In this document: positions 33,317 through 62,260 of the stretch, piece by piece
How the letters are laid out: each line of letters opens with the position of its first letter
Numbering within the stretch: the stretch's first letter is position 1
Source of the DNA: Saururus chinensis
Taxonomy: Eukaryota > Streptophyta > Magnoliopsida > Piperales > Saururaceae
Direction: 5' to 3'
Length of the DNA stretch: 64,000 nucleotides
Assembly: GCA_035235625.1 (NCBI GenBank)
Contig: CP141147.1
Coordinates: 28,068,756 to 28,132,755, forward strand
Translations under genes and position numbers: made by a program
Notes under the pieces: model-generated
Databases searched by the model: none
Told to the model about the DNA's origin: nothing
What the model saw: the letters and a program-made list of their open reading frames with translations, nothing else

Positions 33317-35350
33317 TCAGGTTCCCCTCAAGGGCCGTACTCGATCTTGAATCAATTTCCTTTCCCAGTCTGCTACATTTTCAAAAGCATGGTCTGTGGT
33401 AAGCTATCAAATGGCTCTTTCCATGGATCATTTTTGGCTAAATCATAGGTAGCACCACGGATGGCTGTCTTGTTAGGTCAACAAGGCCTCTTTGAAGTAA
33501 GTGTAGCGTAGGCAGTATTGAGCTATTTCCGTTCACACAAAAATTATTACTTTGATCAAGATGAAAGCGCAATTTATCAAGCATTCTAATATAATTTATC
33601 AAGCAATGGCAATGGCAGGGGCTGGCCCCAATCCTGCTCTACAGTGAATGTAGACTCTTCCTTTACCCTCTGATATTGCCCATTCCAATGAAGAAACTGC
33701 CTTCGGCAATCCATTTCTCAGTGATTCCGGATCGAAATCTCTAGCCTATCACCATGTAAATATGTTATTCCGATCAGCAATATAAGAAGCATTTAACTTG
33801 CTTCTAATTCATTTATGAAGCTATACACTGAAATTTAAAGCTTATAATTAGGCCAAGGAGGCTTACATAACACAATCAAATGATTTTTTGGGTAAAATAA
33901 AAGGGGAAAAGGAGCTTACAGGCCTTCTCATGTGACGGATTCTCTGTTATTTACACCTCTTAATAATTGCCTTCAAGTCAATATCCCAATATTCCACATC
34001 ATTGTCCTGCTGCAGATTTAATATGTAGGCTACATTCTCCTCATGCTTCAAATGATTGATGTCTTCAGGCTTCTGAGGTTGGGATTTAACGATCATGTCA
34101 TCAGTTATGAGGGTGTAGTTCATGCCTGGAAATCGTTGTGAACGGACATCCTTTTCTCAATTTAGACTGACATTGTAATTAGATATCTAAAACTTACAAG
34201 TGAAAGACATCAAGGGGTTGTTTGGCTCTGCTTTGGGTTTTAGGGGCTGTTTAGCAAGTCATTTGAAAAGGAAAGAGAAGGCACTTAAAAGTGTCAATCC
34301 TCTCCAACCCTCCTCATGAGGAGTTAGAGTAGAAAGGGAATCTTCCCGGGAAAAGTCTTTTTCCTTTTCAAATGGCTTGCCAAATAGCCCCTTAAAAGCA
34401 AAGCACCTTAAAGGCACTGTCCTACTTGAATCGCCTCAGGAGGAGAGTTAGGTTGTAAAGCGGCAGCAATGCATCAGAACTCTAGACATTAGGTTTTGGC
34501 CTAGATAAAAACCCTAAAGTGGAACACTTTATCCCCTAAAGCGGGAGCCAATCTAGACTTATAAAGGATCACTTTCTTGACATGTAAAGTTCACAAAAGC
34601 AGAATATCAATGCTGGTTCAAGTGATAGACTCTAATAAACAATGCTTACTGATTAAAAGACATGTAAAAGATACCTCTTTATCTAATCTCACCGGTATTA
34701 AGATACAATATAAAGAATATCTAATCTCACCAATGTGTAAAAGACCTGAAAATTTTCCATATCATACATAGAGCACAGGGCCATAGTCGAAAAAAAAATT
34801 ACTTAATCGGCCTATGAAGAGAATTGAAACGTCATCCAGCCGCCTGACTATAACTGAGCACATATCCAGGAGTAACAGGGAGAGGTCAGTAGAAACAGAA
34901 AACCTACTTCAGATTTTCAGCTCAAATCAAACATCTGATTTTATGAAGCCAGGATCTAAAACATAACCAATAGCCCCTCAGAATAACACCCAGTTCTAAA
35001 ATCTTCCAAAACAACATGATCAATCACACATCCTCCACTGGCAGCGTGAACCAGACGGAGTCCGTACAGACATCTAAAGCATATGATAGGATCCTAAACT
35101 CACCCCAGATCATGATGATATTGATATGGGTTCCTCATCATCCTCTTCATCGTAGTGTTATAATCCTCCATGCTGGTCTTTGACCCCCTCCCTCTTCCTG
35201 GCTCCTGCTCCACCTCAGTCCCTGAAACTGCACAGCAACAGGGTACAGCAACTGGGCAAAAAGATTTCTTTTTGCCGAAAGATTCGTCATTGACAAGAGA
35301 TTCAGGAAGGGATCGCATGTAGAAACGCCACCGTGACCAACAGACCCCAT
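33317..35350 (-). pseudogene. LSF2-like (LIKE SEX FOUR 2) phosphoglucan phosphatase pseudogene
   Basis: LSF2 removes phosphate from starch glucans in plastids. Four exon blocks on the minus strand match it: exon 1 35350-35104 (transit peptide, then MEDYNTTMKRMMRNPYQYHH), exon 2 34125-33919 (MNYTLITDDMIVKSQPQKPE, then NVAYILNLQQDNDVEYW and RIRHMRRP), exon 3 33745-33602 (RDFDPESLRNGLPKAVSSLE, then VYIHCRAGLGPAPA), exon 4 33522-33317 (AIRGATYDLAKNDPWKEPF, then DWERKLIQDRV and LRGT). Splice sites are largely kept. Breaks: a frameshift after the first codons of exon 1 (4 bp fewer than the 56-kb copy), one extra G at the exon 1 donor, a TAA in exon 2 after KRC-K, TGA in the CGPNK segment and a frameshift near HAFEN in exon 4, and loss of the YMYWFCDM segment. 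The catalytic Arg of the C-X5-R phosphatase loop reads Pro. It lies downstream of the MADS gene in the same direction. Confidence 0.85.
34229..34404. mobile_element. hAT-like hairpin MITE in LSF2 intron 1
   Basis: About 175 bp with long inverted arms: GGGGCTGTTTAGCAAGTCAT and TTGAAAAGGAAA at the left, TTTCCTTTTCAAATGGCTTG and CCAAATAGCCCC at the right. The flanking GCTTTGGGTTTT and AAAAGCAAAGC extend the arms. Only one arm is present in the inverted copy (to about 58686), so the duplication boundary falls inside this MITE. Confidence 0.6.
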
Positions 35351-35844
35351 CTCTCTTCCTCCCTCAAGACTCTGACCATTGAATCCTTAAAGCTAAGGTT
35401 GAAACTGGTAACGGGTCAATAAAATTCACGATCTGGGCCTCTCTCTTTCAATTGAACACTAGGCCCTGTCTCATGTCTGAGCAGATGAGCCCATTCTCTC
35501 TCCTGGACGCTATTGTGAATTGCATCATCGAGTTCAGTTATATGGATGGTTCGACTGTGGCCGGCATAAATTGGATAAGGATTTCGATAATTAATTCATT
35601 CAAAGATCAGTAGATCCCGGGATTCCATGAAATTGTGATGGATTTGATTTCTTATTAACAATTATCTAATATAATCTCAAGGGCCTTCAAATATCACATA
35701 ATTTTAGTTCAAGCTTAATCTTGATCAACTAATTTTTATAAAGCTCGGTAAAATTTTCTTTTCTAGTCATGATCAACACTGATATTACTATAATTGCCTG
35801 GAATATCTAACATAAATTACTAGTTAAAAAAATTTAGCTCTGCG
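35351..35844 (-). other. Spacer between MADS gene and LSF2 pseudogene
   Basis: About 490 bp between the MADS stop codon and the LSF2-type ATG. It would hold the MADS 3' end and the original LSF2 promoter. It is conserved at 55515-56045 in the other arm, and no coding frame is seen. Confidence 0.5.
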
Positions 35845-36462
35845 TTAATCGTATCTCAGATAATAATGGTGGCCAGGGTCGTAGTTCCCAGACACAGGAG
35901 CCTCGTCAATGGCCAAAAACGTTGATGGAGATGACTGGGCCTCAGCCAGCTCGTCGGCCCGCCTAGTCACGTTATTTCGCAGCTCCTCTAGGGAGGCCCT
36001 GTACTCCTCCAGCTCGTCCAGGCGTAGACCGTGAAAGTCAGCGTTCCACCAAAACCCGACCTCAGTAGCCGCCCGGCTGGCCGCGGTCAGTTCCTCATTC
36101 CTCTTCTTCGCGGTTTCCACCCGGTCGAGCAGCTCGTAGTATTGCCTCTTGAGCTCCCTTAGGGCCAGGTCCTCCTCGTATGGTGGAGGGACTAGAGATT
36201 GATTGGTGGCAGGGTCGGTGGTGGTTGAGGAGGAGAGGAAGCGGTGGATGACGTGGTCGGGTGAGGGGTGGCCGAAGGTGAACACCTTGCCGGCCGGGGA
36301 GAAGACGACAAGGGCGATCTCTGCGTCGCAGAGGATGGACAACTCGCTGGCCTTCTTGAAGAGGCCAGAGCGTCGCTTGGAGAAGCAGACCTGGCGGGAG
36401 TCCACATTCTCAATCTTCTTGATCTCGATCTTCTGCCGTCCCATGCTCGGCTTCTTCACCAT
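35845..36462 (-). CDS. Type I (M-alpha) MADS-box protein, AGL62-like
   Basis: Nuclear transcription factor; AGL62 relatives act in endosperm and female gametophyte development. Single-exon frame of 205 aa from the ATG at 36462; a longer frame from 36516 adds 18 residues not expected in the family. AGL62-like proteins start with MVKK followed by GRQKI, as here. The MADS domain runs about residues 7-66: [20 protein letters not shown], then [20 protein letters not shown] and [21 protein letters not shown] short coiled-coil-like region (about 100-135) follows, then the [18 protein letters not shown] block typical of AGL62 relatives. No stop or frameshift is seen, so the gene looks intact, unlike its copy at 54910-55514. 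Homology to the other arm ends only about 50 bp upstream of the ATG, so promoter status is uncertain. GC-rich, in a pseudogene neighbourhood. Confidence 0.85.
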
Positions 36463-36516
36463 GATGGACTCTGAATCTCTAATGGTCGGGGATTGAAGGT
36501 GAAAGAAGGAGATCAC

Positions 36517-37211
36517 TAAATAAGTGAAGCATTAGTAAGACCCAAGATGTACTAGATCATGATTTTAAAAATCAAATCATACAATAGATAAACATCTTCG
36601 CAATTTGGAGATAAACATTAAAAGAGTAATAAAAAATTATGTCTTTTTTATCTCCAAACTCTTAGACCAACAAAAAAAATTATTATAGTTAATAGAATAA
36701 TAGAAGATTAAGTGTATACCTCAGCCAATAGCGCTCTTAATCCTTGTTTGGGAGAAAGTAAAAAGTGCACAAGATTAACCTGAAAAAACAATAATATTAC
36801 AACCTAATAGCATATGCAAACTCACAACAACACTTAGGTCAAAGCTGGCGGAATCTCTAACACACAGAAATTGACACAACACAATGATAAGTAATAAAAA
36901 ATAAAACTACACCATTTTATTTTAAGAAGTTATACATAAAGGATACAACCAAAACAAAATGTGGTATTATTAAAACAATTACTAAGGTACAATTTCTACA
37001 CACAAAAAAATTACAATTGTTGCATAAAAAATATTCCATTACAACAAAAACAATTCATTTCAATGACCAAAACTCGGCATATAATAAATACTCTTCCTGC
37101 AAAAATAATTTTGAATTCTCAAAATTCAATTCCAGTAGCGAAGTGAACACCTGGGGATCATCTAAGCCACCAGATCTGTAAGGATTGACCTATCCCCAAC
37201 ATTTGGGTCAC
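36517..37211. other. AT-rich intergenic DNA
   Basis: No gene or clear repeat recognised between the MADS gene and the PPR fragment. Confidence 0.35.
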
Positions 37212-38090
37212 CTAACCACTTAAAATTTCGCTTTCTAGGCACTGAACTGAATGTCTTTGGTGCCCTTCCCTTAATTGTTTAAACAAAACAGAATGTGTAC
37301 ACAAATTTGGCTTAATATCCATCATCATCATTTCGCTATACAGTCTCAACGCCTCATCCCTAGAGCCCTGATTGCAGTTAGCATTCATTAGTAATGTGTA
37401 GGTATACTTATTAGGAGATAGCCCTCTCTCTCTCATTTCATGAAAGAGCTGATAGGCCTGATCAATTGCCCCTGTTTTACAATAGCCATTGATTAAAGCA
37501 TTATAGGTGATCTCATTCGGTAAAATCCCTCTCTCTAACATCTCTGAGAAGAATGATGAAGCTGCTTCCAATCTCCTATTGGCTGCACAAGCATGAATTA
37601 AAATTGTGTAAGTCACAACTGAGGGGCGCAATCCTCTCCCCAGCATTTCATAGAAAGGACCCTTAGCTTCTCTCATGTGGCCCTTCCTGAGATATGCATT
37701 GATGATCAAGGTATAGGTCCAGCAATCTGGTTGAATACCTTCTTGCAGCATTTCAAGCCTTAAGCTGGAGGCATTCGTTGAGTCCTCTGACTTGTACAAC
37801 CTATCAATTAAAACATTAAATATAACTAAATTTGGCCAGAACCCCTTAGAGATCATCTCTTCACGTAACCTAGCATTTTCAGATGGATCAGAAAGCTCAT
37901 TACCAAGCTTTAGCTCACCAACCATGCGTGTGATGTATGCAAAACAATCTGGCTGCAACCCTTTACTCATCATGTCATCAAAAATCACCGTAGCCATTGC
38001 TAAATTACCTACTTTAATAAAGCCATGTATGAGACTAGTACGTGAACACATCAGGAACCAACCCGAGATTTACCATCTCATTTCAGAATG
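37212..38090 (-). pseudogene. P-class PPR gene, C-terminal fragment
   Basis: An open frame of 279 codons (38051-37212) holds about seven 35-residue pentatricopeptide repeats, such as PDCWTYTLIINAYLRKGHMR, PSVVTYTILIHACAANRRLE, PNEITYNALINGYCKTGAID and PNKYTYTLLMNANCNQGSRD. The C-terminal tail ends CLESEILSG. Such proteins bind organelle RNA. Upstream of the first Met the repeat continues in another frame (EMVNLGLVPDVFTY), so a one-base shift interrupts it. Beyond about 38090 no PPR sequence or targeting peptide is found. The N-terminal half of the gene is therefore missing. A truncated functional protein cannot be excluded, but a gene fragment is more likely. Confidence 0.7.
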
Positions 38091-39823
38091 ATTTTGCCCT
38101 CAACAAACAAACTGTTTTTGTTTTGTTGGTTTCACCTCCTCAACATCATGCAGATCAATCTCATTTCAGAATTTGGAACTTGAAGTTTGATGTAGCTAGT
38201 GTGACAATCCTTTCTCACTCACTAGCACAGATGTGCATTACAAAAGCTAGTTTGTTTGTTTTTGTTTTGCACCTAACTTGCTGAAGAAAAAGAAAAGCCA
38301 GAATAAAAAATGTCTTCTGCTTGTATTGGGTAATTATACTGTTGGCAAGGGATTCCATTACAAAGCCATGGTTTCTAAGATTTGAAATTAGTACCTGTAC
38401 AAAAATAATTCTAATGTACTGTTTTTTATCTTTTATTTCAATTCTATCATAGTTTGTGTTACTAAAAAGTAAATTATAACTCTTTTCAAGAGCTCTAAGA
38501 GCATCTCATTTCTGCCATGGAGTAAATTGAAGTCCTAGATAAGGCCCAACTGTGGAAATGGCGCCCAATTTGTAACAAGCATATAGAATTTGGCTGTGAC
38601 TACATTTGTTAGAAGTTTCTTTGTGGGATATTTTGCTTCCATATTTGTCATCTTCATACAGACTTACAGATTTCTCTACAAAGTATCATCCTACAGCTTG
38701 GCTTCACTCCCTCCTCTCTGAACTCTCGGTTCCTTTGGTTAGGGTATATAAGACTTTGGTGTGCCTCTGTTTTTCTTTTCATGTCCTTGCAAATTCTAAC
38801 TGTTCATATTTCGAGTTTGAAGGGAAATGTGAATTTTTATCTAGTTTTTCTTTCTTCTTTTATTGTGTTTAGTTTCATTGGTAGGGACATTTATGACTTT
38901 TCTCAAATTTTGTAAGCCTAGATTTTTTAAAGTTTGCTTTTGTTAGCTTTGTAATTCTGGAATTTACACCAACACAATAGTAGAGGTTCTCTTCTTCACA
39001 ACACCCTGGACCAAGATTGGACCTGAGAGAGTACAAGAGCAAAGCATAAAGCAAAACTGGACCTGGTCCAGGAGAAGCCAGCTTTGTTGACCTTTTTTCC
39101 ATAAGGAGTTGTGTTTGGTGTGGAGAGAGTCAGTCAAAACCCATTGGCTAGCATTGATCTGTTGCAGTTTTTACTTTGGAATTCGACAACATTTGGCACC
39201 TAAGCAACTGTGTAATGGATTGAAAAAAAAACATAATGTAAAAGAATGCTGAGAAAGAAAAAAGAATGGAAAAGTTTGCATTAACCTGTTGTAGTTTTCT
39301 TGGGAAACACTATTCAAGTCACTAATAACATTATGAACCTAAGCAACAGTAATTTTCAACATAATTGAGTGAAACAGTCTTTGCAACCTATATAGCATAA
39401 AGAATGTGGCTACCCGTAATGAGAAAAAACAAAAGAGTAGCATATTTGCATGTTAACCAATGATGGACAAAAAGCTAGCTATCGATAGTAGTAATTATGT
39501 TCAAATGAAGCTTGAAAGCATGTAGAGAAAAGAAATTCCAAATAAAAGTCAAAAAATAACTTTTAAAAAATTTATCTGTGTAGGTTGGTAGTACTTGTAA
39601 AAGAGGAAAAAGGCATTAAAAAGAGAAGTAGCCTTTTCCTTGGTGGCTAGTTACGAAACATCTACAAAATATGTGATCACTTAGATGCAGAAAAGGAGAA
39701 GTCTTTGGATTAATCATATCAGTACAAAGTAGGAAAATTCTTTGAATAGAAGAATTATAAGAGGAGAGAAGTACTTTGCATATGTGTTGTTCTGCATTTG
39801 GGATCAGGATATCTGCTATTCAG
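38091..39823. other. Intergenic DNA, no gene seen
   Basis: No homology is recognised; random open frames only. Upstream exons of the coiled-coil gene fragment that follows were sought here and not found. Confidence 0.35.
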
Positions 39824-41338
39824 CATCCGGATCCCACCGTAGTTCTGATTCAGGTGAAATATTAATGGGGAGAACCTACTCACCCCCTGCAAACAATATT
39901 GATGGAGATCTATCTAGTCCTACCAAGAGACAGGATTCCTTTGGCTCCCAAAATATTTCAGTTGTTGGCTCGGCTCCCACTGATGATCCTTCCCGGTCAA
40001 ATCACTCATCATTTAGTTCAAGAACAGAGCTTCATAATCAGCGTCAGGTCGTCACAGGATTTAGCTCGTCGCGTGGCCTTGCTCCATTATCTTTCCGAAG
40101 TAATAACTCCTCTTCCAAGGACCTTCTAGATGCTGCTGAAGATAACATTGATGAACTGCGGGCGGAAGCAAAAATGTGGGAAAGAAATGCCAGGAAACTA
40201 AAGCTTGATCTTGAGACATTAAGAAAGGAATTCTCTGAGCAGTCAAGACGTCAGGCAGATCTGGACATGGAGCTTTCTGCTGCATTTGCTGAACGAGATG
40301 GCTTAAAGATGGAGGTTAATCAGTTGAAACGATTGCTAGATGAATCAGTAACAAAACAGAAAGTATTTGATACTTCAAAAACATTGAGTGAAGATGTGAA
40401 CTTGTACAAAGAATTAGGAAATGAACTGAAATTTCAGAAGGAATCTAATTCTGATCTATCCCAACAACTCCAGAAAACTCAAGCGCCCAATCTAGAGCTT
40501 GTTTCTATTCTTCAAGAAATGGAAGAGACCATCGAGAAACAGAAAAGGGAAATTGAAAATCAATCATCAGAATTGCAGAAGGCAGAATTTTCCAAGTCGG
40601 AGTCATTGGATGCCCTTGTTGAGTCCCTTAAGAAAAAATTAGATGAGAAGAACCAAGAATTTGAGCATGAAATAGCTCTAAGAGACCAGACCATTGATGA
40701 TATTGAGGGACAGTGGGTAAGTAGGGTATCTGAGAAGGATGAAGAGATTGTTCGCTTACAGGAGAGGATGTCCGGTTCATTTAATAAGAATAGTTCAGAA
40801 CTGGTTAAAGAAATTCAATCCCTAACAGCTAAACTTCAGAAGCTGGAAAGGGACTGTAATGAGCTTACAGAAGAAAATCTGGAACTTATATATAAGATGA
40901 ATCAATCAGGATAGGAACCAGGAACAACTGAAATGACTCTAAAATCTTTTTCGAGTTCGAATGATATACAGATGAAAATTGATGAGTTAGAGAGACAGTT
41001 GAAAGAAAAGGAAATGGTTGAGGTTCAGTTGACATCCTTTAAAAACAAGTGTTCAGACCTTGAACATAAACTTCGATGCAGTAAGGAGCAATCTTTTGAC
41101 CATCATCAAGAAATCATTAAAAATCAATTTGAACAGGAAAGCTTTGAAGAGGAGGATTTGGAAATTTATCAGCACATAGACACAGAACAAGAAAAAATGC
41201 ATGGTGTTGTCACTTAAGGAAGTGAAAATTTTGAATTATGTGGACATGTAGAAATAATGAATATGCTCTACAAATTGAAGGATCAGCTTCAATTGGCTCT
41301 AAAAAATATGGAAGTTACTAAAACCAGAGATTGCTAAA
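39824..41338 (+). pseudogene. NT-C2 / myosin-heavy-chain-related coiled-coil gene fragment
   Basis: The translation matches the middle of plant NT-C2 (EEIG1/EHBP1-type) myosin-like coiled-coil proteins of unknown exact role. Visible blocks are SASGSHRSSDSG, the Ser-rich linker, LLDAAEDNIDELRAEAKMWE, RKLKLDLETLRKEF, DLDMELSAAFAERDGLKMEV and LVSILQEMEETIEKQKREIE. The start follows an intron acceptor (TATTCAG at 39817-39823), so this is a DNA copy of one large exon and not a retrocopy. The 390-codon open frame is followed in the same frame by stops at 40912 and 41215, with matching sequence continuing to about 41335. The N-terminal C2 domain and the true C-terminus are absent. Upstream in-frame sequence to 39742 is intron. 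Very probably non-functional. Confidence 0.7.
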
Positions 41339-41437
41339 TCTGCCATTGTCCTCACATTAAAAATTTTAAGGGAACAGTGACATCTATAAGTAGTTTTGCA
41401 TAACTTTTTCCAGAAATGAGCACTTTATTGGTAGCCC

Positions 41438-41483
41438 AACTTGAGATTCTCCAATACTAATGCATTACTCAAATCCCTCTTAT
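41438..41483 (+). repeat. 46-bp exact direct repeat, copy 1
   Basis: CAACTTGAGATTCTCCAATA and following bases through CCCTCTTAT recur without visible mismatch at 42377-42422. Confidence 0.8.
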
Positions 41484-42376
41484 TATATATCAATGAATTC
41501 TAGAATAGAATACCTTTTCTTTGGAATTGGCTAAGCAATACAAAATATCTAGATTATTTGTCAGACGTATGCACAAACCTTGTCAAGTAAATGCTTGTTC
41601 CAAGCAAATTTTCAGTTGATTGCAACTCATGTTCAGAAAAGAAAATTCTTTGAATATCAAATTCTGAATCTAGATGTAGTTCAGCATATAACAGTTGTTA
41701 GATTGCTATAAGCCTAACTATTTTAGTTGTAGAATTTGGATTTTGTTTTCCAAAAAATCTTATGTCAACAGCAACCACAACCATATGATGCATGTTCCTA
41801 AGTTTGTAAAAGCAGTACACATTTTCTTCCTTTTTTTAGCTAAGGTATTTTCTAAAGCTGACTCAGAATATATATGTTCATTCAGGTATACAGAGCCAAC
41901 TTATTTGTTCAGGATGCCGAAACCTCCTCCTCTATCCACTGGGAGCAACTTCTGTATGCTGTGCAGTCTGCAATGCAGTGACAACCGTCCCACCTCCAGG
42001 TGTGCTTCTCTGTTTTTGGACTAATTCTTCTACCTGCAAGCATCTTATCTTGCATTTGCTGCCTCCCTGATGTCCCTCTTTTTGTGTATAGCCAGCTTCA
42101 TTTTGGTCCCTTCGGGGATTTATACACTATGGAGCTCCTTTAATGATCTTCTCTGGATTTTGAATCACTTAAAGTTCCTGTAATTGCTATTTTTGTTCCT
42201 GGGTTGCGTCTTAGGCTTATATGTGAATTTCATGTAAATAAAGAAACATCCTAGCAGTTAATATTAACTATGAAGATCACATGGTTGGAAGAAATTATGA
42301 TTTAACAGAAATGGCTCTGGTTTGTGGGGGCTGTCACACTCTATTGATTGTACTTCTTTCAACAAAATAAGATAAA

Positions 42377-42422
42377 CAACTTGAGATTCTCCAATACTAA
42401 TGCATTACTCAAATCCCTCTTA
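42377..42422 (+). repeat. 46-bp exact direct repeat, copy 2
   Basis: Second copy, 939 bp from the first. The DNA between them (41484-42376) holds no recognised gene. Confidence 0.8.
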
Positions 42423-42798
42423 TACTAAATTAAATTTAAAGCTAAAATATGTGAGTAAATTGAAGGAATCAAATCAATTGAAACACAAATTCGTTTCCCT
42501 GCTGGAAACACCCAGAAAACAAGGCCAAAACAGCACTGAAACGAATGAGTGTTTCTTCCGTCTTTGTTTCCCCATAAAACATCACATGTACTCTGAAACA
42601 AACCCAGAAAACTGTAAGTTCGAAGTGAAATTTTATCTTGCCCGCTCTTTAGATGAGAGCACTACCGACACAGCTCTGAAACACCCAGAGAATATAGCCC
42701 GAAGAAAACCAGATAAATAGGGGAAAAAATATGTGATGTACCTGCTATCCTTCTGCCTGGCTTTCCACTGCGTTTGTGTGCATAGCGATGTCTAGCTT

Positions 42799-47205: not shown

Positions 47206-50200
47206 GTTTGATGTTAAAATTGCACTATGTCATAGTTGGACTATATATTATGAATTGGGGATTTTTTTTAATTGTTTAACTATGCATTATAAATTATAGT
47301 TATCAATTTACTATGAATTTTTTATTATTTTATTATAAATTAATTATTTATTTTCATATTATTTAACTAAAATTTAAGGGATTAATATGTCATATCTTGT
47401 GTTTAAATGAGAATTGAATGTTACAAATTATATCGTGTATTTTGTCATACATTTTAAAAACACAGGATTCTGGCAAGCATTCTAAAATCAAGCATCTAAA
47501 ATACAGGATTTTAGTTTACATTTTGAAATTGAGCATTTGAAATACATGAATCTAAAATACAAAACGACTAACACCCTGTTAGAGAATTTCTATGGTGGGT
47601 TTAGGACTCCTATTGTTTCCTTACAAGTGGTAGCTACGGTTTGATAGGTTCGGGGTAGAGATGGCTAATGACAACAAGTACAAAATTGAAAAGTTTAATT
47701 GTGAGAATTATGCATTCTGGAGGATGCAAATTGAAGATTACCTGTATCAGAAAGACCTCTGGCACCCGATGACCGGTGAGAAGGCCAAAGACACCACGGA
47801 AAATCCCTAGGTGTCGTTCGTCTTGCAATTTCTGTGCCGGTCGCTTCAAATATTTTGAAGGCAAAAATGATGAAGGAACTGTTTGATCTATTGGAGGAGA
47901 TGTATGCAAGAAATTCTTCGGCACACAAGGCACATCTAGTTACTAGTTTTATGGATGATAGCGTGGCTAATCATCTAAATGAATTTCACAAACTCACCAA
48001 TCAGCTGGATGTGGTGGGTGTAAAATTCTCAGAGGATGTACAGGCCATTTGCCTCATAAAATCTTTGCCAAAGAGTTGGAGCATTTTCAAGACAAATGTG
48101 TTCCATTCAAAGGGCAACGTAAATCTGACATTGAGTGATATCACTCCCCAAATGTTGGTGGAGGAGATTCGACGAAAGGATGGAGATTCTCCCACTACGT
48201 CTGCCTTGACCATGGATGATTGTGGTCAACGATCACAATAGGGAAAGCAAGGTGGTCGTGGAAAATCCCAATGATGGCGTTCCAAGTCTCGCAACGGCAA
48301 GGGAGATGGAACTTGCTGGAATTGTGGCCAGGTGGGCCATATGAAACAGGATTGCACAGCCCTGCCCAAAAATGACAAGGAGGTAAAAATATTGTGAACC
48401 TTACCAGTAATTCTGAATGTATGATATTGTCAATAGAAGATAGACTTGATACATGGATTATTGATTATGGTGCATCTTTCCATGCTACTAGCAATAAAGA
48501 GTTACTTGAATGTTATGTTGCTGCAAATCTCAGAAAAGTTTATCTTGACAATAATAATACTTATGATGTGATTGGTAAGGGGAATATAAGTTTGTTGCAG
48601 GAGGATGACATAGTATTTATGTTGAAAGATGTTAGACTTTGCCTCGTTTAACGAAAATTTTGATATTTGTTGGTCAATTGGCTAGAACCGGAGTGGCTAC
48701 AAAGTTTATCTGTGACACATGGAGTATGACTCGAGGCTCCCTTTTGTAGCAAAAGGGAAAAGGTGGGGACATTGTATTTGTCCTCATGTAGAAACAAGGA
48801 CTCTATATCGGTGGCATCATCAGTTGTTGACTCTACAACATGGCACAAAAGGTTGGGCCACATGAGTGAGAAGGGGATGCAAGTTTTGATGAACAAGGGG
48901 AAGCTTCCTGACTTAAAGGAGGTAAATCTAGATTTTTGCGAAGAATGTGTTATGGGAAAGCAAAGAAAGGTTACCTTCACAAAGGCCGTTAAGGAAATGA
49001 AATTAGAATGTTTGGAGCTAGTACACACGGACGTCTGGGGTCCGGCTCATGTACAATCCCTCGGCGGTGCTCTTTACTTTGTGACTTTTATTGATGATGC
49101 ATCTTGCAAGCTTTGGGTTTATCATTGTCGTAATAAATCAGATGTGTTTAACTTGTTTGTCAAATGAAAAACTCTTGTTGAGAATGAGACATAATTAAAG
49201 TTGAAGTGCCTGAAATCCGATAATGGAGGAGAATATTGCAGTAGTGAGTTCCAATCCTATTGTGACAAACATGGGATTAAAAAACTTCTTATAACCCCAA
49301 GACAACCAAGACAAAATGGTGTGGTAGAGCAAATGAACAGGACAACCTTAGAGAAGGCTATGAGTATGAGACTCCATGCGGGGCTGCCAACATCATTTTG
49401 GACCTATGTCGTAGACACAACGACATATTTAATCAACCGTTCTCCATCTTACTCCCTAGATGGTGGACTACCCGAGGAGGCATAGACAGGGAAGGAGATA
49501 AAATATGATTTCTTACGGGTGTTTGGATGTGCAAGTTATGTACATGTGGAACCAAAAAATAGGGGAAAACTTTACTCAAAGTCGATCAAGTGCTATTTTA
49601 TTGGTTATGGAACTAACAGTTATGGGTACAAACTATGGGATGCAGAGCAGAAAAAAGTCATTAGAAGTATTGATGTTGTCTTCAATGAGTCTGATTTGTA
49701 CAAAGACTAACAAAGTCTATAAAAGGGGAAGGAAAAATCTCAGTTTGTAGAATTTGAGGTAGACAAATCCTTAGTTGATAAAGCAGGAAATGCAGATGAA
49801 GCCAGTTCTAGCCAGGAAGTATCTCAACCAGATGACAGTCATGATGAAGAGGTTGATGATGAGCCAGCTCATGTCTCACAATCCTCTACAATTCCTTTGT
49901 AGACACCGGATGGATGGAGGAGGAGTAGGGTACATAAGCCAAATCCAAAATATGACTCTAGCCTTAATTATTTGTTGTTAACAGATAGTGGAGAGCCTGA
50001 AAGTTTTAAGGAGGCATGTCGTATAGATTTATTTATTGAGTGGGAGCATGTCATGGATGATGAGATGAACTCATTGTCTTCAAAAAATACTTGGGAGTTG
50101 ACCCAACTGCCAAAAGGGAAGAAGGCTCTGCATAACAAATGGATCTATAGGTTGAAAGAAGAGACCAATGGAAACAAGCGTTACAAAGCCAGACTAGTAG

Positions 50201-51666
50201 TCAAGGGTTTTGAGCATAAGCATAGGGTAGATTTTACAAAGATATTTGCTCCAGTGGTGAAGATTACTACCATCCAAACAGTCTTGAGCATAGTAGCAGT
50301 GGAGGATCTCCACCGTGAGCAGTTAGATATGAAAACTGCATTCCTTCATGGTGATTTGGAGGAAGAGATCTACATGCATCAACCTAAAGGGTACATCGAA
50401 AAAGGTAGAGAGAATTTGGCTTGCAAGTTGAAGAAGAGTATGTATGGTTTGAAACAGGCTCCAAGACAGTTGTATAAAAGGTTTGATGGGTTTATGCAGG
50501 CAATTGGGTTCTATAGGTGTCATTCAGACCATTGTTGCTATTTCAAAAATTTTGGTACCTCCTATATTATACTACTGTTGTATGTCGATGATATGCTTAT
50601 TGTAAGATCCAAAATGATTGAGATTGTGAATTTCAAGAGAAAAATGTCTCAGGAATTTGCAATGAAGGATTTGAGCCCATCAAAACATATTCTTGGCATG
50701 CGAATTACTAGAGACAGAAAGAAGAAAGTGCTGAAACTATCACAGGCAGAATATGTTGAGAAGGTACTTCAGAGGTACAACATGCAGGGTGCTAAGTCAA
50801 TTGGCACCCCTCTTACAGCACATTTCAGACTCTCTCAAGATCAGGCCCCAACCACACTAGATGGGTGGAGAAAGATGGAGAATATTCTTTATGCTTCAGC
50901 AGTGGGTTCTCTTATGTACGCTATGACTTGCACTAGACCATACATCTCCCATTCAGTGGGAGCAATGGCTAGGTATATGAATAATCCTGGAAAGGAGCAC
51001 TAGGAAGCAGTGAAGTGGATCCTAAGGTATTTTAAAGGTACATCACAGTTGAGTTTATGCTTTGGTGGTTCAAACATAAAGCTCTTGGGTTATGTGGATT
51101 TTGATTTGGCTGGTGATGTGGACTCTAGGCGGAGTACCACGTGCTACGTATTTACTGTTGGGAGTGGAGCAGTAGCATGGCAGTCACAACTTCAAAAGAT
51201 AGTCACTTTATCTTCTACTAAGGAAAAGTGTGTTGTAGCCACAAAGGCGTGCAAGGTGTTGATTTGGTTGAAGGCATTCCTAAAGGAACTGGGTAAGGAG
51301 CAGGGTGAATGCTGGTTGCATTCAAACAATCATAGTGTTATTTATCTTGCCAAAATTTTGGCGTTTCATTCAAGAACCAAGCATATTGACATCAAGTATC
51401 ACTTCATCCGGGAGCTCATAGAGGAGAGGGAAGTGAATTTGGAGAAGATCCACACCAAAGACAACCCGGTGGACATGTTGACGAAGGTTGTCACCATGAA
51501 GAAGTTGAGGTCATGCTCAACTTCCATCGGTCTTTTACACTAGAGGACCGGCCATCCCACACCCGTTGCTTGTTCAGATTGAGGTTTGGAGGGTTGAAGA
51601 CTGTTAGCTTCAAGTGGGAGAATGTTGAAGAAGAAGATGAAGCCCATTAGTCTCCAAGTGGGAGAT

Positions 51667-51912
51667 TGTTAGATATGAAGTCTGATTTTTGGGAAGATTG
51701 ACAGCTTGCAAAAAGATTTGAGAACAACTCAATAAGGATAGTTTCTAGATCTCAAACTGTGTTCCATATTCAGTTGATGTTATTTCTGGAAAGGTCTTTA
51801 ACAATGTTTATTCCTGGAGGGTATGAGACAATGATTTTAATTCCAGGGAAGAGTCAGGGAGCAATCTATATAAGAGAGAAAAACAGAGCAAACAAGGGGG
51901 CGATCTGTTCAA
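51667..51912 (+). repeat. 3' LTR of the plus-strand Copia element, shortened
   Basis: Begins TGTTAGATATGAAG right after the polypurine tract. Homology to the 5' LTR stops after GGGGGCGATCTG at about 51912. Confidence 0.65.
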
Positions 51913-52283
51913 AGGAGAGAAGTGGCTCAGCGAGGGAAGCGTTTTTTATGCTCCTGAAAAGAATGAGCCCATAATAAGCCCCGAATCAAATAACGACACG
52001 TTGCAAAGAAGAGGGCACCGAAACGGAGACGGAGAAACTAGGTTGACGTTAACTCCGTGTTTCCTTCCGTCCGCTTCCCACTTTCAACTCCCGCTTCCCA
52101 CCCCCTGTTTACCGAGTATCTCCTCTGTTGCCGGGAAGATACGGAAGGATGAGCACAAAGGAAGAGCACTAGGGCAAAAGCGTTTTGGGCGGAGGAAGGA
52201 GCCATCTTTCCCGGTGAAGTGGGCTGCTAGCCTGCTATTGGTCGAAACCCTAGTGGAGCTCCCTCTTGTTGACGCTATCACCA
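51913..52283 (+). other. Start of mosaic region; promoter-like DNA of unknown origin
   Basis: Follows the shortened 3' LTR. Near 51937 it carries GGGAAGCGTTTTTTATGCTC, resembling an arm of the hairpin MITE family at 31.8-32.2 kb. The rest looks like gene 5' flank, and no coding sequence is assigned. Confidence 0.35.
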
Positions 52284-52505
52284 ATGGCGATTCACCGAGT
52301 CCTCTCCTCCCTCCTCCTTCCAGCTTGCCTCCAAGCCCGCCACCGCCCTCCTCGCGCCGAGAGCCCTCGCCGGCCGCCCCTCGCCCAAGGGCTTCCTCCT
52401 GTCCCGCACTCTCGAGTATGCCCCCTTCCCACCGGCGACACCGCCCGCCGGGCCTAAACTTGTGGGGCCCAGTGGTAAAATCACTGACGAGTTTACCGGG
52501 TTTGG
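52284..52505 (+). pseudogene. Mitochondrial ATP synthase beta subunit, N-terminal fragment
   Basis: The ATG at 52284 opens MAIHRVLSSLLLPA, like the mitochondrial presequence of the nuclear F1-ATPase beta gene. After a frame change the sequence continues GRPSPKGFLLSRTLEYAPFP and then GGKITDEFTG-like SGKITDEFTGFGNW, the diagnostic start of the mature beta subunit. Homology stops there. The catalytic P-loop domain and the rest of the gene (about 480 residues) are missing. This is therefore a captured or duplicated piece of exon 1 with at least one frameshift and cannot make an ATP synthase subunit. GC content is much higher than the surroundings. Confidence 0.65.
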
Positions 52506-53141
52506 CAATTGGTCCTTCCGCACTCAGACTTCTCTGGAGCCCCCTCCCAAACTTCTCTCTCGATCTCCCTCTCTGATCGAGCTCCACACCGCACCCTAGT
52601 TGCCGGAATCGGAATTGGCTCCTCTCTGCGGCCTTTCTCCCTAAACCTTAATCTAGGTTGTGCCGGCGGTTCACCTCCTCCTCCTCCTCAAAGCTGAATC
52701 CAACCAGCTTGCGAAAATGAGGTGAGTTCCCTTTGCTGCTGGTTTGATCATTGTGCGTTTCTTTCTCTCTGGGAAACTTTGCTGCCTTTTGTATTTCCTT
52801 TCCATTCACTTATCTGTCAACTTGATCTATGATTTTTGAAGCAGATGATATGAAGGTTCATTTGTTTTTTTGTTCTTTTTTTTGCTTAAGTCTAGTGTAT
52901 TTTCGTTCTTAAGGTCTTATTGGAACCCCATTTGAATCTGTGTTATGATATTACTCATAACATTGTCTATTTTACTTATAAAGCAGCATTAGACTTTTAA
53001 AGCCAGTCCCCCAATTTGATATCTCAAAAAACAGAAATTTCAGAATGTTAAATTCTTTGGTTATCATGATTTGCAAAGACTGATTGGATTTATTTATAAT
53101 AATCTTCTGACACATTGCTAGAAAGTTTCACCTACTTACAG
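52506..53141 (+). other. 5'-leader-like DNA and intron-like sequence
   Basis: CT-rich DNA (52540-52700) resembling a plant 5' UTR leads to AAAATGAG followed by GTGAGT (52717-52727), a plausible first exon end. T-rich intron-like DNA follows up to the first kinesin exon. The gene of origin is not recognised; it may be the kinesin leader or a third source. Confidence 0.35.
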
Positions 53142-54159
53142 CTCATAGACATGTGGGATCCAACAACTTCAATTTGCTCAGCAGCAGAAGTCATACAATA
53201 TTCACGCTGGTATGTTATTTATTGACCAGAAAAATCTGTTCAATTGATGAATTTAATTGAAAAAAAACATAGGTTAAATGCCGCATTTATGCTTCATTTT
53301 TACCCAAACGATTGGATTGATAATTAAGGAAGAATAAATGGCCAGTAGTGGAAAAAGCTGCATTCATGGTAAATTTCCAATTATTAATATGATTCCAGTT
53401 GTAGTTGTTTTGTGCCTTTGATTAAGATTTTTCCCATTAGGTGAAGCTGGTGTTAGGTCCTCTCTAAATTGTCCATTCAAAGGGTGTGTATTTTCAATAA
53501 TAGCTTTAGTGTGCTATAAAGGTTCTGGTTGCTTTATTGACATGCCCAGCATAGACTCATAAAGGCATGTATGGATTTTTGAAACGTAACAAAATTGGTT
53601 AAAACTATACTTGGCTTGTGTCAAGCTTGTTTATATGTTAATGGCCGGCTGGTGGCTTAGGAATGATCTTCTGTCTTCTTCCAATATTTGGGTTACTTAG
53701 TAATTCTTGTCATGATGTATGTATCTGGTATTATTAATTATTTAATGCCAATGTATCCTTTAAATTGTCTTGTTACAGACCATAGAGAGTAGTCCTTGCG
53801 GTGAAAATTGTGAAGGAGAAGCTGCGAACTTGTCTCAGTTGGTAAGATATTTCATTTCCAACCTACTTCAGTTGAAAAAAGTACCTTCCTTTCATATTCT
53901 ATATGATTGTTTAGTTAGAGTCTGATATTTAGCAAGCTAGATGTTTATTCTCATGGATTTGGCTGTATGAACTTTATATTTCTATCTATATTCAAGTTTT
54001 AGTGCGCAATAGATTGGCTTCTTATTTGTTTTGGTATTTTACTTATACCTGCAGAACCTCATCGATCTGGCAGGTTCTGAGAGCTCGTGGGCTGAAACCA
54101 CCGGTGATCGGAGGAAGGAGGGATCTTACATCAATAAAAGTTTGCTAACTCTTGGAACT
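53142..54159 (+). pseudogene. Kinesin-7 motor-domain gene fragment, three exons
   Basis: Three exons with GT-AG introns encode the switch I to switch II part of a kinesin motor. Exon 53142-53209: HRHVGSNNFNLLSSRSHTIF. Exon 53779-53841: TIESSPCGENCEGEAANLSQ. Exon 54055-54159: [20 protein letters not shown], then [15 protein letters not shown]. These match plant kinesin-7 (MKRP/KIN-7D-like) proteins, which move along microtubules. SSRSH (switch I) and LAGSE (switch II) are kept. The P-loop exons, neck and tail are absent on both sides, so a working motor is impossible. Retained introns show a DNA-level copy. The exons themselves have no stop. Confidence 0.8.
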
Positions 54160-54854
54160 GTAAGGCCTGATATGGATCTTTGATCACATACTTTTTCTTT
54201 TTGTATCCTGTTTGTAATTTTCTCAATTAATGTCTGTATCCTTTGCTGTGTTGAATTCCTTTTCCAAAAAGGTGATATTTAAATGCCATAGAATCCATTG
54301 ATGAAAAAGGAGATATTAGTAAATGCCATAGAATTTTTTGTTTGTTTAAGTGTTTATTCTAGTCAATTTACTGAAGTTTGGGATCACTTTATTTACAGAA
54401 TGTGCTTTTGGACCCACTGTAACAAGAATTATTTAGATGGTTAGAAAAACCTTAGCCTGCACTTTTCTAGGCCATATGTCGATGGCTCACTTAGTTACTA
54501 CCACATATGCACCTGACACACTTACTCTGAAATTTGTACAGATGTATGGGTGGGGATCCATGCCCATCCAGAATATGAAATCCAGAATATCTTAGTAGCT
54601 CCTCCTTAAAATGCATTCTCATTGAAACATTAATTGACAAGATTGGCCAAGTAGGGTAGTTTGTTGATGGCGTGTAGTGGGAGATAATCGCGAGAACGAG
54701 ATTCAACCAGATCTTTTGGAGGGTGATTTTACAAATTGCCTCTATGGTCGGATCCATAAGTCAAAATGACGGAGGCCTATGTAAAACCCTCTCTATATCT
54801 ATATTTTTAGTGGAGGTTTACAAATACCCCCACCATGCAAGTCCTGCTGTGGGT
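54160..54854. other. Spacer between kinesin fragment and duplication arm 2
   Basis: No gene, terminal repeat or Helitron-type 3' hairpin recognised. Confidence 0.35.
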
Positions 54855-54909
54855 CTAATTTTTCCCCTCCTACTTTGCCTTCAATCCCCGGCCATCAGAG
54901 ATAGTCATC

Positions 54910-55514
54910 ATGGTGAAGAAGCCGAGCATGGGACGGCAGAAGATCAAGATCAAGAAGATTGAGAAGGTGGACTCCTGCCAGGTCTGCTTCTCTAAGCGCT
55001 GCTCCGGCCTCTTCAAGAAGGCCAGCGAGCTGTCCATCCTCTAAGACGCAGAGATCGCCCTTGTCGTCGCAAGGTGTTCACCTTCGGCCACCCCTCACCC
55101 GACCACGTCATCCACCGCTTCCTCTCCTCCTCAACCACCACTGACCCTGCCACCCATCAATCTCTAATCCCTCCACCATACGAGGAGGACCCAGCCCTGA
55201 GAGAGCTCAAGAGGCAGTACTACCAGATGCTCGACCGGGTGGAAATCGCGAAGAAGAGGAAGGAGGAACTGGCTGCGGCCAGCCGGGCGGCTACCGAGGT
55301 CAGCTTCTGGTGGAACGCTGACGTTTACGGTCTATGCCTGGACGAGCTGGAGGAGTACGGAGCCTCCCTGGAGGAGCTGCGAAACAACGTGACTAGGCGG
55401 GCCGACGAGCTGGCTGAGGCCCAGTCATCTCCATCAGCGTTTTTGGCCATCGATGCGGCTCTATTGTTTGAGCACTACGACCCTAGCCACCATTATTATC
55501 TGAGATACGATTAA
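54910..55514 (+). pseudogene. AGL62-like MADS-box pseudogene (copy of 35845-36462)
   Basis: Starts [20 protein letters not shown] and follows the intact gene closely. In the MADS domain TGC (Cys in SILCDAE) reads TAA. A 13-bp deletion about 25 bp further on removes FSPAGK-coding bases and shifts the frame. The rest (55074-55514) remains open: [18 protein letters not shown], then SFWWNADVYGLCLDELEEYG and HHYYLRYD. An Arg in the FSKRRSGL motif is Cys. The protein cannot fold a MADS domain, so the copy is dead, although the 146-codon 3' frame could still be mistaken for a gene. Confidence 0.85.
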
Positions 55515-56045
55515 CGCAGAGCTAAACCTTTTTAACTAGTAGTTTATGTTAGATATTCCAGGCAATTACAGTAATATCAGTGTTCATCATGACTAGAAAA
55601 GAAAATTTTACCGAGCTTTGTAAAAATCAGTTGATCAAGTTTAAGCTTGAATTAAGATTATGTGATGTTTGAAGGCCCTTGAGATTATATTAGATAATTG
55701 TTAATAAGAAATCAAATCCAGCACAATATCATGGAATCTCGGCATCTAATTGATGATCTTTGAATGAATTAATTATCGAAATCCTTATCCAATTTATGCC
55801 GGCCAGAGAGCAGACAGTCGAACCATCCATATATGTGAACTCGATGATGCAATTTACAATAGTGTCCAGGAGAGAGGATGGCTCATCTGCTCAGACATGA
55901 GACATCCACAGGGGAGGATAGGATGGAACGGGCCTAGTGCTCAATTGAAAGAGAGAGGCCCAGATCGTGAATTTTGTTGACCCGTTACCAGTTTCAACCT
56001 TAGCTTTAAGGATTCAATGGTCAGAGTCTTGAGAGGGGAAGAGAG

Positions 56046-56297
56046 ATGGGGTCTGTTGGTCACGGTGGCGTTTCTACACTTTTGCGATCCCTTCCTGAAT
56101 CTCTTGGCAATGGCGAATCTTTCGGCAAAAAGAAGTCTTTTTGCCCAGTTGCTGAACCCTGTTGCTGTGCAGTTTCAGGGACTGAGGTGGTGCAGGAGCC
56201 AGGAAGAGGGAGGGGGTCCAAGACCAGCATGGAGGATTATAACACTACGATGAAGAGGATGATGAGGAACCCATATAATATCATCATGATCTGGGTG
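56046..56297 (+). pseudogene. LSF2-like exon 1 copy
   Basis: Encodes MGSVGHGGVSTLLRSLPESL, then the transit-peptide region and MEDYNTTMKRMMRNPY, matching exon 1 of the pseudogene at 33317-35350. Here the 5' part is in frame, because the 4 bp lost in the other copy are present. One base is missing just before the HHDLG codons. The donor CTGG followed by GTGAGT is normal and shows the ancestral splice phase. No later exons follow; the duplication ends in intron 1. Confidence 0.8.
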
Positions 56298-56654
56298 AGT
56301 TTAGGATCCTATCATACGCTTTAGATGTCTGTACGGACTCCGTCTGGTTTATGCTGCCAGTGGAGGATGTGTGATTGATCATGTTGTTTTGGAAGATTTT
56401 AGAACTGGGTGTTATTATGAGGGGCTATTGGTTATGTTTTAGATCCTGGCTTCTTAAAATCAGACGTTTGATTTGAGCTGAAAATCTGAAGTAGGTTTTC
56501 TGTTTCTACTGACCTCTCCCTGTGACTCCTGGATATGTGCTCAGTTAGTCAGGCGGCTGGATGACGTTTCCATTCTCTTCATAGGCCGATTAAGTAATTT
56601 TTTTTTCGACTATGGCCCTGTGCTCCATGTATGATATGGAAAATTTTCAGGTCT

Positions 56655-56663
56655 TTTACACAT
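56655..56663 (+). repeat. 9-bp target site duplication, left
   Basis: TTTACACAT, identical to 58274-58282. The other duplication arm carries this sequence once, followed by TGGTGAG, and is the empty site. Confidence 0.85.
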
Positions 56664-57332
56664 GGAATGGAAAACGATATTTCCACACGAGATCATCACA
56701 ACACTTACTCCCACAGCTGACGTGGATCCGTTATCAACTCCCCCTCTTTTTTCCTGCGCGTTTATGTTTTCTGCGCGAGACACTGAAATTTTCGCTCCTG
56801 TGCTCGCTCACCCTGCTCCTCTCCATCCTCCCCCGTTGGACACCCGCGACCTCCCTTGTTGGACTCCTCCTGCCCACCCACCATTGGCCTCCCATCTCCA
56901 TCCTCCTCATCGGACTCTGAAACTTTTGCCCACGTGCCCACCCGCCCAGCTCCCCTCCATTCTCCCTCGTCACCGGCGACCTCCCTCGTCGGACTCCACT
57001 CACCCACATTTGCCTCCCATCTCCATCCGCCCCATATGGACTCCACCCACCCACCCCCAGCATCTCTCTCTCCTCCCCCTTAGTACCCTACCCCATTCAA
57101 GGCCGTCCCCTCTCCCTCCTCCCCCTTCGGACACCCGCGCCCCTCCTCTGTTCCTCCTCTCCTTTTGGACTGCACTGATCCGCTCCTCTCTCTCCTCCCC
57201 ATTCGAATTCCATCTACACGAGCCCCTCCAGTCAGGAAATCATAGAGGTTGCAAGATAAATCTGGAGTCGGTATTGGGGTCACAGCCAAGCTTCCTACTA
57301 GGGAGTCCTGCAAGCTAAGAGGAGAATATTGC

Positions 57333-57690
57333 ATAAAAGTAGTCTTCTGCAAATGGAGAATACTGCAGCATACTAGGAGGTGAGTCGATTGATGTTGATC
57401 TTTACAAAGTTGACTACATAATTCCTGCAACTGGGCAGATCTTCTTATCAAGTTCCCAATTCATATCAAGTTATCAATCATTCCTTAAGGAAGCACTAAA
57501 TAGAAATGACGCCTTTCCAAGGCTGTCAAGATTACCGGTGAATGTTTTCCTTGAGTCTCTGCACAATGAACTTGAGCTTTTTACATTCACCGGTAAACTG
57601 CTTCTAATTGACAGCTTTGGAGATAAATCGCCCCTCAAAGATTTCTTCATTTCTCGGCAGAGGACAGGAACAGGGGAGTCGACGTAGGAG
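57333..57690 (+). pseudogene. Exon-like segment of unknown gene inside the MULE
   Basis: An open frame begins after an AG (TAG at 57330-57332) and reads about 115 codons to TAG at about 57687. It contains NGEYCSILGGESIDVDLYKV, then PATGQIFLSSSQFISSY, FPRLSRLPVNVFLESLHNEL and FTGKLLLIDSFGDKSPLKDF. Codon usage and hydrophobic pattern look like real protein. I do not recognise the family. There is no ATG at its start and no continuation, so it is most likely one captured host exon. Position in the MULE makes a chimeric transcript possible but unproven. Confidence 0.45.
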
Positions 57691-57735
57691 ATGCACCCGA
57701 ACTGGCTGAGCTAGACGCGACCGGAGGAGACGAGG

Positions 57736-58131
57736 TCAGCATCCTCGTTGGAGACGTGAGATGTAGGCTGCATGGAGAGACTCAGAGACACGGAGGAAGA
57801 AGCCAGGGCGGGCGGCACGCAGCGGGTCGTCCCCGCGAGGCATGATCTCTACCATCTGGAGGAGCAGCAGTGTCCAGTGCTCCCGGGCCACCTTGACGTC
57901 GGTGCTCGCATGCTCCAGCAGATTCGCCCACACGCCGGGCGCCAGCGCTGCCACCGGAAACGGAGATAGAGAAGAGGTCGATGGGGGGAATGGGTGGAGG
58001 GAGTCGTAGTTTGGGAGCCGTCGCTGCGATGATGAAGTTCTCTGCGCGGAAGAAGGTGTGGAAGGGAGATCTGGCCTCGGGGTTCTATTCCACGGAGAAG
58101 AAATGGGGACATGGGAATTTTGAGTTTTCAA
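57736..58131 (-). other. 131-codon open frame in the MULE, status unclear
   Basis: The frame on the minus strand ends with VWANLLEHASTDVKVAREHW, then LLLLQMVEIMPRG. The N-terminal half is Pro/Ser-rich and low in information. No family is recognised. It may derive from a second captured gene or be a chance frame in GC-rich DNA. Confidence 0.25.
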
Positions 58132-58273
58132 AATTTAAAGTAAGATAGGTAAAAAGTACTCTGGCGGTGGTAGATGGGTCAGATTGGGATGGCTGAGATG
58201 GGATGGTCTGATTGGTACACGCTGGATGTGGGAGAAAGTGATGTGAAAATTTGTTGTGGTAATATCACGATCC

Positions 58274-58282
58274 TTTACACAT
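58274..58282 (+). repeat. 9-bp target site duplication, right
   Basis: TTTACACAT, the partner of 56655-56663. LSF2 intron sequence resumes directly after it. Confidence 0.85.
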
Positions 58283-58697
58283 TGGTGAGATTAGATATTC
58301 TTTATATTGTATCTTAATACTGGTGAGATTAGATAAAGAGGTATCTTTTACATGTCTTTTAATCAGTAAGCATTGTTTATTAGAGTCTATCACTTGAACC
58401 AGCATTGATATTCTGCTTTTGTGAACTTTACATGTCAAGAAAGTGATCCTTTATAAGTCTAGATTGGATCCCGCTTTAGGAGATAAAGTGTTCCAGTTTA
58501 GGGTTTTTATCTAGGCCAACACCTAATGTCTAGAGTTCTAATGCATTGCTGCTGCTTTACAACCTAACTCTCCTCCCGAGGAGACTCATGTAGGACAGTG
58601 CCTTTAAGGTACTTTGCTTTTAAGGGGCTATTTGGTAAGCCAGTTAAAAAAGAAAAAGACTTTTTCCAGGAAGATTTCCTTTTTACGCATGGGAGCA

Positions 58698-58859: not shown

Positions 58860-58920
58860 GGTTCTCAGGCGTTCCTTACGCTCGGCGCACATTGACTTAG
58901 GAGTGTTAAAAACGCTTCCC

Positions 58921-62250: not shown

Positions 62251-62260
62251 TATAAAAGGG
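62251..62260 (+). promoter_or_regulatory. Candidate TATA box in the LTR-like region
   Basis: TATAAAAGGG follows AT-rich DNA and precedes GTAGACCTGAGCC-like sequence. It is a plausible transcription start region for the element. Confidence 0.4.

Follow-up and report, generated by a model that had tools for sequence, protein, structure and literature searches.

Inverted copies of gene segments in cis are known from inverted-repeat silencing loci, for example those of the duplicated CHS or PAI genes. Inverted duplications can also be produced by sister-chromatid transposition (SCT) of the maize transposons Ac/Ds, as described in two reports (PMC3744419, PMC8225341). In rice, the repair of DNA-transposon excision sites commonly adds filler sequence or deletes the flanks, according to the corresponding study (PMC4423477). 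Here, we describe a locus of Saururus chinensis in which a MADS-box gene and the 5' part of an LSF2-like gene are present as two inverted copies (arm 1 and arm 2) on both sides of a CACTA (En/Spm) transposon. The locus lies in a stretch of 64,000 nucleotides of contig CP141147.1 (C8:28068756-28132755), referred to as the window. C1, C3, C7, C8, C9, C10 and C11 denote contigs of the same genome, and searches were carried out over the 516-Mb genome in 11 contigs.

The locus resembles the silencing loci of the CHS and PAI type in having inverted gene-segment copies in cis, but differs from them by its 18-kb transposon-filled spacer and in being known from sequence alone. With the maize Ac/Ds products, it shares a DNA transposon placed between inverted duplicates of neighbouring sequence (PMC3744419, PMC8225341). 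However, the element is a CACTA and not a hAT transposon, it is truncated, no target-site duplication (TSD) can be seen, and the event is old, since the arms have diverged by 3.2-9.1%. The likeness to the rice excision sites lies in the loss of terminal bases and in the joining of foreign DNA at the transposon edge (PMC4423477).

A MADS-LSF2 Segment Is Present Twice in Opposite Orientation

Comparison of the window with itself by blastn revealed two inverted matches, both with E=0. Positions 34329-34744 were 95.0% identical to 58686-58271 over 416 bp without gaps, and positions 34733-36511 were 91.4% identical to 56663-54867 across 1821 columns. This bears out the first-pass annotation of the window, which had described a stretch of about 2.2 kb, comprising a MADS gene and the beginning of LSF2, in two copies of opposite orientation 18 kb apart. 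Identity limited to the coding parts would have spoken against such a segmental duplication; between the arms, the MADS-LSF2 spacer was 94.3% and the intron piece 95.0% identical.

An assembly error had been named as another possible objection, and a single assembly is available. Nevertheless, a duplication introduced by the assembly is unlikely because the arms have unshared indels and diverge by 3.2-9.1% across the four compared parts. Moreover, the 1.6-kb insert of arm 2 is present in this arm alone, whereas copies made by an assembly artefact would be expected to be nearly identical, so that the chance of the two arms having been created in this way is practically negligible.

Searching the genome with arm 1 resulted in 42 rows (the best 40 of 44 candidates were scored). 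Three rows corresponded to the two arms and 38 were short MADS-box or repeat matches. The only arm-like DNA elsewhere was C1:24749271-24750666, with 86% identity and without the MADS part. Thus, the search for further MADS-LSF2 neighbours proposed in the first-pass annotation yielded one LSF2 match on C1 but no MADS gene beside it. A larger transposable unit carrying the arms is not supported, as among the same candidates the arm DNA was found solely here and partly on C1.

A CACTA Element Fills the Interval Between the Arms

The interval of 18.35 kb between the arms is filled by a CACTA element whose edges coincide with both inner arm ends, at a distance of 0 bp from arm 1 and 3 bp from arm 2. 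The inverted copies are flush with the transposon edges, as expected of SCT products, with the left edge being a truncation and not a natural terminus. The first searches with the ends of the spacer used queries cut at the arm borders, and the edges were re-tested with queries including the flanks. With these flanked queries, similarity to copies of the CACTA family began at 36512 in all four relatives examined. The right end could be aligned up to 54863 in three of the four relatives and up to 54836 in the fourth. A right-end row was located no more than 7 kb away, with order and strand kept, for 11 of the 19 paired left-end rows, and therefore the DNA from 36512 onward and that ending at 54863 belong to a single repeat family, as two of its parts. 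When one relative served as the query, the point of the left junction was spanned by 19 of 33 rows, counting the relative's own locus, and the row of the window alone started there.

Left of the junction point, the relative on C7 showed a match to Transpos_assoc (4.5e-20, above the Pfam cut-off) and one to Transposase_21 (tnp2; 1.5e-4), the latter with 21.5 bits and thus under the cut-off of 28.6. A TNP2-type transposase is represented in this way at the level of the family, the window copy being truncated before that region. The right terminus reads GTAGTG in three of the four relatives, and these 6 bp are gone from the window copy. No left terminus matching the right one was recognised in the stretches examined on C7 and C9, and the lost left part of the element was not found elsewhere in the window.

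The relative on C3 was collinear with 36512-38573 (one gap), 40251-42799 and 54654-54836. Positions 38574-40250 and 42800-54653 had no match to this relative in that order, and a few short matches were out of order. From this collinearity it follows that the spacer is a single element with additional DNA. Over the two longest stretches of the alignment, the window copy and the C3 relative were 95.2% and 91.7% identical (gaps counted). To judge from this alignment, the element between the arms probably had an original size of about 6-7 kb, including a PPR piece, and the sequence 42800-54653 would have been acquired later.

Two long open frames were observed at 39742-41217, the first of them without a Pfam match; from 40251 on, this region is common to the C3 relative. 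It is probably a captured gene piece.

The position of both inner arm ends within 3 bp of the CACTA edges would be hard to obtain by an unrelated duplication, and the CACTA element gives the best indication of how the pair arose. We consider it rather probable that the pair is a non-functional relic of a transposon-associated duplication that was formed around the CACTA element. A related possibility is that the element was already near the MADS gene and that a break at its right terminus was patched with 2.2 kb of nearby MADS-LSF2 sequence by synthesis-dependent strand annealing, with no fusion of sister chromatids. The 6 bp missing at the right junction resemble a repaired break, and in the rice study the 94 putative DNA-transposon excisions included only 8 perfect ones, with deletions and/or foreign filler accompanying the rest (PMC4423477). 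However, the rice fillers given there measure 1-123 bp (PMC4423477), whereas the piece joined here is 2.2 kb long, inverted and of local origin. A filler of this size starting exactly at the other CACTA junction would moreover need a coincidence, and we regard this course of events as unlikely.

The distance of 0-3 bp between the arms and both CACTA edges is also what a central insertion would yield, if a palindrome with abutting arms had arisen first and the CACTA element had been inserted later at its unstable centre, the left part being lost thereafter. This order of events requires a deletion from the left side that halted exactly at the arm edge, and no TSD is visible; it is distinctly improbable. 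The features of the locus are compiled in Table 1.

Table 1. Features of the inverted MADS-LSF2 pair and its surroundings (positions in the window).
Feature	Position	Strand	Evidence or remark
Arm 1: MADS gene, spacer, LSF2 promoter, exon 1, part of intron 1	34329-36511	-	blastn and alignments; gene orientation: minus strand
Arm 2: arm 1 sequence in inverted orientation, split by a 1.6-kb insert	54867-58686	+	blastn and alignments
Left-truncated CACTA (En/Spm) element with PPR piece, without the last 6 bp (GTAGTG) at its right end; spacer	36512-54863	-	similarity to genomic relatives
DNA in the CACTA element absent from the C3 relative, ~11.9 kb	42800-54653		Pfam RVT_2 (Copia reverse transcriptase) and DDE_Tnp_4 (PIF/Harbinger-type) pieces
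Open MADS-box gene, 205 aa, single frame, SRF-TF domain	35845-36462	-	Pfam SRF-TF PF00319 E=1.8e-27; translation
Broken MADS copy: TGC to TAA at codon 45, 13-bp deletion	54910-55514	+	alignments
LSF2-like gene, whole but dead	33320-35350	-	exon 1 short of 4 bp; stops TAA (exon 2), TGA (exon 3) and TGA plus frame break (last exon)
LSF2 exon 1 copy in arm 2, 1-bp deletion near exon end	56046-56294	+	alignments
C1-collinear block with CIPK and LSF2 genes	19088-35651		matches C1:24739505-24750666; right edge in the LSF2-MADS spacer
Mutator-like element (MULE)-like insert in arm 2 with DUF936 gene fragment	56664-58273		9-bp direct repeats at 56655-56663 and 58274-58282; Pfam DUF936 E=5.1e-10
Fold-back inverted repeat, 188 bp, abutting the outer end of arm 2	58685-58872		blastn; fold z-score -8.98
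Inverted-repeat element within intron 1 of LSF2, shared with C1	34229-34405		blastn; outer arm end 34329 falls inside

One MADS Copy Is Open and the Other Is Dead

The translation of the arm 1 MADS gene comprised 205 codons followed by a stop, in agreement with its earlier description as open. PF00319 was the sole Pfam match, and the gene has neither a K-box nor an intron (one open frame), as is characteristic of type I genes. It is putatively AGL62-like, of the type I M-alpha group. The stop and the 13-bp deletion attributed to the arm 2 copy were both seen in the alignment, and this copy is dead. Hence the locus contains a duplicated single-frame MADS gene without a K-box match of which one copy decays, and the form of the duplication is a transposon-centred inverted pair that carries the 5' end of a second gene. 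Both MADS copies read away from the CACTA element, and the ATG lies 49 bp from the arm edge in arm 1 and 43 bp from it in arm 2.

Between the two copies, nonsynonymous (dN) and synonymous (dS) divergence amounted to 0.058 and 0.147 (200 of 205 codons, stop skipped), or to 0.052 and 0.191 by YN00, and three methods gave dN/dS values of 0.27-0.39. The replacements were polarised against three paralogues. Within the first 67 codons, all five of them, including the stop, fell in arm 2 (at codon 45, two of the three paralogues agreed). Beyond codon 67, the majority of the three paralogues assigned six of 21 replacements to arm 2 and two to arm 1 (codons 122 and 143), and 13 could not be polarised. 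The MADS gene of arm 1 may thus still be alive, with an upstream region that is new to it.

Independent Decay of the LSF2 Copies and the Block Shared With C1

The first-pass annotation had described the LSF2 part of arm 1 as exon 1 with part of intron 1. This holds for the duplicated part; the sequence is, however, contiguous with further exons, which contain one TAA and two TGA stops. The 4-bp loss reported for exon 1 of arm 1 was evident from the alignment, in which arm 2 and C1 retain these 4 bp. In arm 2, the first codons of exon 1 are in frame, as had been stated, but the exon has a 1-bp deletion of its own near its end that shifts the frame, and LSF2 exons 2-4 were not found beside this copy. 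With C1 as the outgroup, the 4-bp loss is private to arm 1 and the 1-bp loss is private to arm 2, which supports the proposed independent decay from a better common ancestor. A 33-bp in-frame difference from C1 is common to both C8 copies and is therefore older than their split.

The joined exon 2-3 peptides of the C1 LSF2 matched the solved structure of LSF2, a phosphoglucan (starch) phosphatase (4kyq), at 8.6e-57. The four pieces searched on C1 were all open; as C1 itself had supplied three of the four queries, this demonstrates openness alone and not splicing. A genome search with the exon 2-3 peptides gave five rows, two on C1, two on C8 and a weak one on C11, and thus the sole open LSF2 found is that on C1. 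In the window, the match to LSF2 comes with three stops and the 4-bp loss instead of an intact frame. The window LSF2 is a pseudogene and the decayed counterpart of the open C1 gene.

C1 and C8 share about 11 kb of CIPK-LSF2 sequence, and the C8 LSF2 next to the MADS gene is dead. Relative to the collinear ~11 kb of C1, the window contains positions 23092-28885 as extra sequence. Homology to C1 ends at 35651, between LSF2 and MADS, and leaves the MADS gene outside the shared block. The CIPK gene of the block has kinase and NAF domains, and its C1 and C8 copies differ with a dS of 0.098 and a dN of 0.019 (414 codons). Since arm 1 runs on into the remaining exons of LSF2 and the block collinear with C1, it would most simply be the source and arm 2 the copy.

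Because collinearity stops sharply at both ends within the compared 220 kb of C1, a whole-genome duplication was set aside as the simple reading of the C1/C8 relationship. Outside the block, scattered matches of 67-79% and a repeat of 91-96% at 61824-64000 were present. A transposon mark was considered for the right edge of the block on C1, but the first kilobase beyond this edge had no other match among the best 40 of 1555 candidates, and no TSD was seen by eye at the C1/C8 block edges.

The first-pass annotation had also suggested that the inverted pair could give hairpin RNA. Of the 2163 21-mers of arm 1, 705 are also present in arm 2, and both arms contain 101 of the 340 21-mers from the exon 1 region of the C1 LSF2, as would suit a functional hairpin or antisense locus whose double-stranded RNA silences LSF2 or AGL62-like genes. 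However, the MADS genes diverge and lie 18 kb apart around transposon DNA, and arm 2 is broken by the 1.6-kb insert; such a function appears most unlikely. The CACTA edges, 43-49 bp from both MADS ATGs, might also constitute a two-way promoter of a rewired AGL62-like pair in which arm 1 is still selected, with the dead LSF2 arms feeding small RNAs that act on the C1 LSF2. We regard this combination as very unlikely. A search of the open-licence literature found nothing related by title on CACTA inverted duplication with chromosome breakage or with small interfering RNA, which is no claim of absence from print.

Divergence and Proposed Order of Events

Of five pieces compared between C1 and C8, the two with the highest divergence had Kimura two-parameter distances (K2P) of 0.105 and 0.110, and the other three had values of 0.052-0.079. 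Between the arms, K2P was 0.053 for the intron piece, 0.033 for the LSF2 promoter to intron 1 and 0.060 for the spacer, and the LSF2 part of the arms differed from C1 by 0.056-0.057. With C1 as the outgroup, the LSF2 promoter-exon-intron part contained 15 unique substitutions in arm 1 and 14 in arm 2, and the outer intron piece 3 and 16, respectively.

The MADS coding sequence differed by 7.6% between the arms and by 5.9% after removal of CpG-context sites. Without these sites, the difference was 5.8% in the spacer, 4.0% in the intron piece and 2.9% in the LSF2 part. In the MADS coding sequence, 16 of 94 CpG-context sites differed compared with 30 of 511 others; of the other sites, 11 of 189 differed in the spacer and 25 of 855 in the LSF2 part. 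Gene conversion of MADS or an older MADS duplication is not needed to account for the higher MADS divergence relative to the spacer, since CpG sites explain the gap; the LSF2 part stays lower. An order of block duplication, CACTA insertion and inverted copy would fit these divergences, and no absolute date is claimed.

The inverted duplication most likely post-dates the C1/C8 duplication and arose through aberrant transposition or the repair of a break. According to this model, the CACTA element would have been located in the 5' leader of a single MADS gene. Aberrant transposition or break repair at the element would then have joined the MADS-LSF2 5' stretch of the sister chromatid to the other end of the element, with LSF2-MADS-CACTA-MADS-LSF2 as the product. 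Nested DNA would subsequently have widened the spacer and a MULE-like element would have entered arm 2, and the spare MADS copy of arm 2 would have decayed while that of arm 1 remained open. This explanation requires no function of the two arms as a pair; the locus looks like ordinary genome turnover and not like a working device. The processes are of known kinds and no new system is revealed.

Several observations weigh against this reconstruction. No TSD links the CACTA ends, and the exact event is unreadable because the right terminus has lost 6 bp and the left edge is an internal breakpoint. The left junction at 36512 is located 2 bp before an internal CACTA motif (36514-36518) that may be there by chance or may be a cryptic transposase end. 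Arm 2 has its outer end in a repeat and immediately next to the fold-back element, hence there is no clean target site. No TSD was recognised by eye at the four arm ends, where a 3-bp repeat might have gone with the element ends. The dN/dS values suggest that at least one MADS copy was under constraint for some time, and the arm 1 MADS may still work. Finally, the order of events rests on rough dates because rates are uneven and the loci single: three C1/C8 pieces have values of 0.052-0.079, and the non-CpG arm divergence ranges from 2.9% (LSF2) to 5.9% (MADS).

If the proposed origin is correct, the locus would be a natural example, with a rough sequence-based dating, of an inverted gene duplication centred on a CACTA element; two studies report such an outcome for maize Ac/Ds (PMC3744419, PMC8225341). 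It would indicate that one transposon can copy a gene and remove the upstream region of both copies. The likely series would then extend from block duplication, CACTA insertion and inverted duplication to gene death.

Nested and Neighbouring Elements

The insert in arm 2 measures 1610 bp, has the 9-bp direct repeats ATGTGTAAA on both sides and degenerate inverted ends of ~45 bp, and is MULE-like in these features. DUF936 was the sole match of the frame scanned (57736-58131). A search for genomic relatives gave 67 rows including the insert itself (the best 40 of 55 candidates were scored). The extra DNA assigned to arm 2 in the first-pass annotation (56664-58282) does contain this insert, but the insert proper ends at 58273 and the remainder is one of the 9-bp direct repeats. 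For the fold-back element that borders arm 2 on the outside, the best 40 of 874 candidates included no second copy, and its designation as a miniature inverted-repeat transposable element would therefore be a guess.

Within the CACTA element, 42798-43032 and 51666-51907 form a direct repeat of 83% identity, the first copy of which is situated at the left end of the stretch lacking in the C3 relative. Positions 53000-54650, which adjoin the right end of the CACTA element, have copies of 99% identity on C3 and C10 and are a very young repeat.

The extra DNA in the C1-collinear block (23091-28886) contains an 88% direct repeat (23954-24562 and 27963-28575) as well as the pair 24650-24725 and 28567-28642, and is probably a decayed insertion of the long terminal repeat (LTR) type. 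The repeat at 61824-64000 has a length of at least 2.2 kb and is likely the end of an LTR element; it shares 96% identity with an inverted copy near 24.69 Mb of C1 and 91% with another copy close to that one. Imperfect direct repeats of one family, ~50-160 bp in size, recur at 8397-21184 in the left portion of the window and also on C1.

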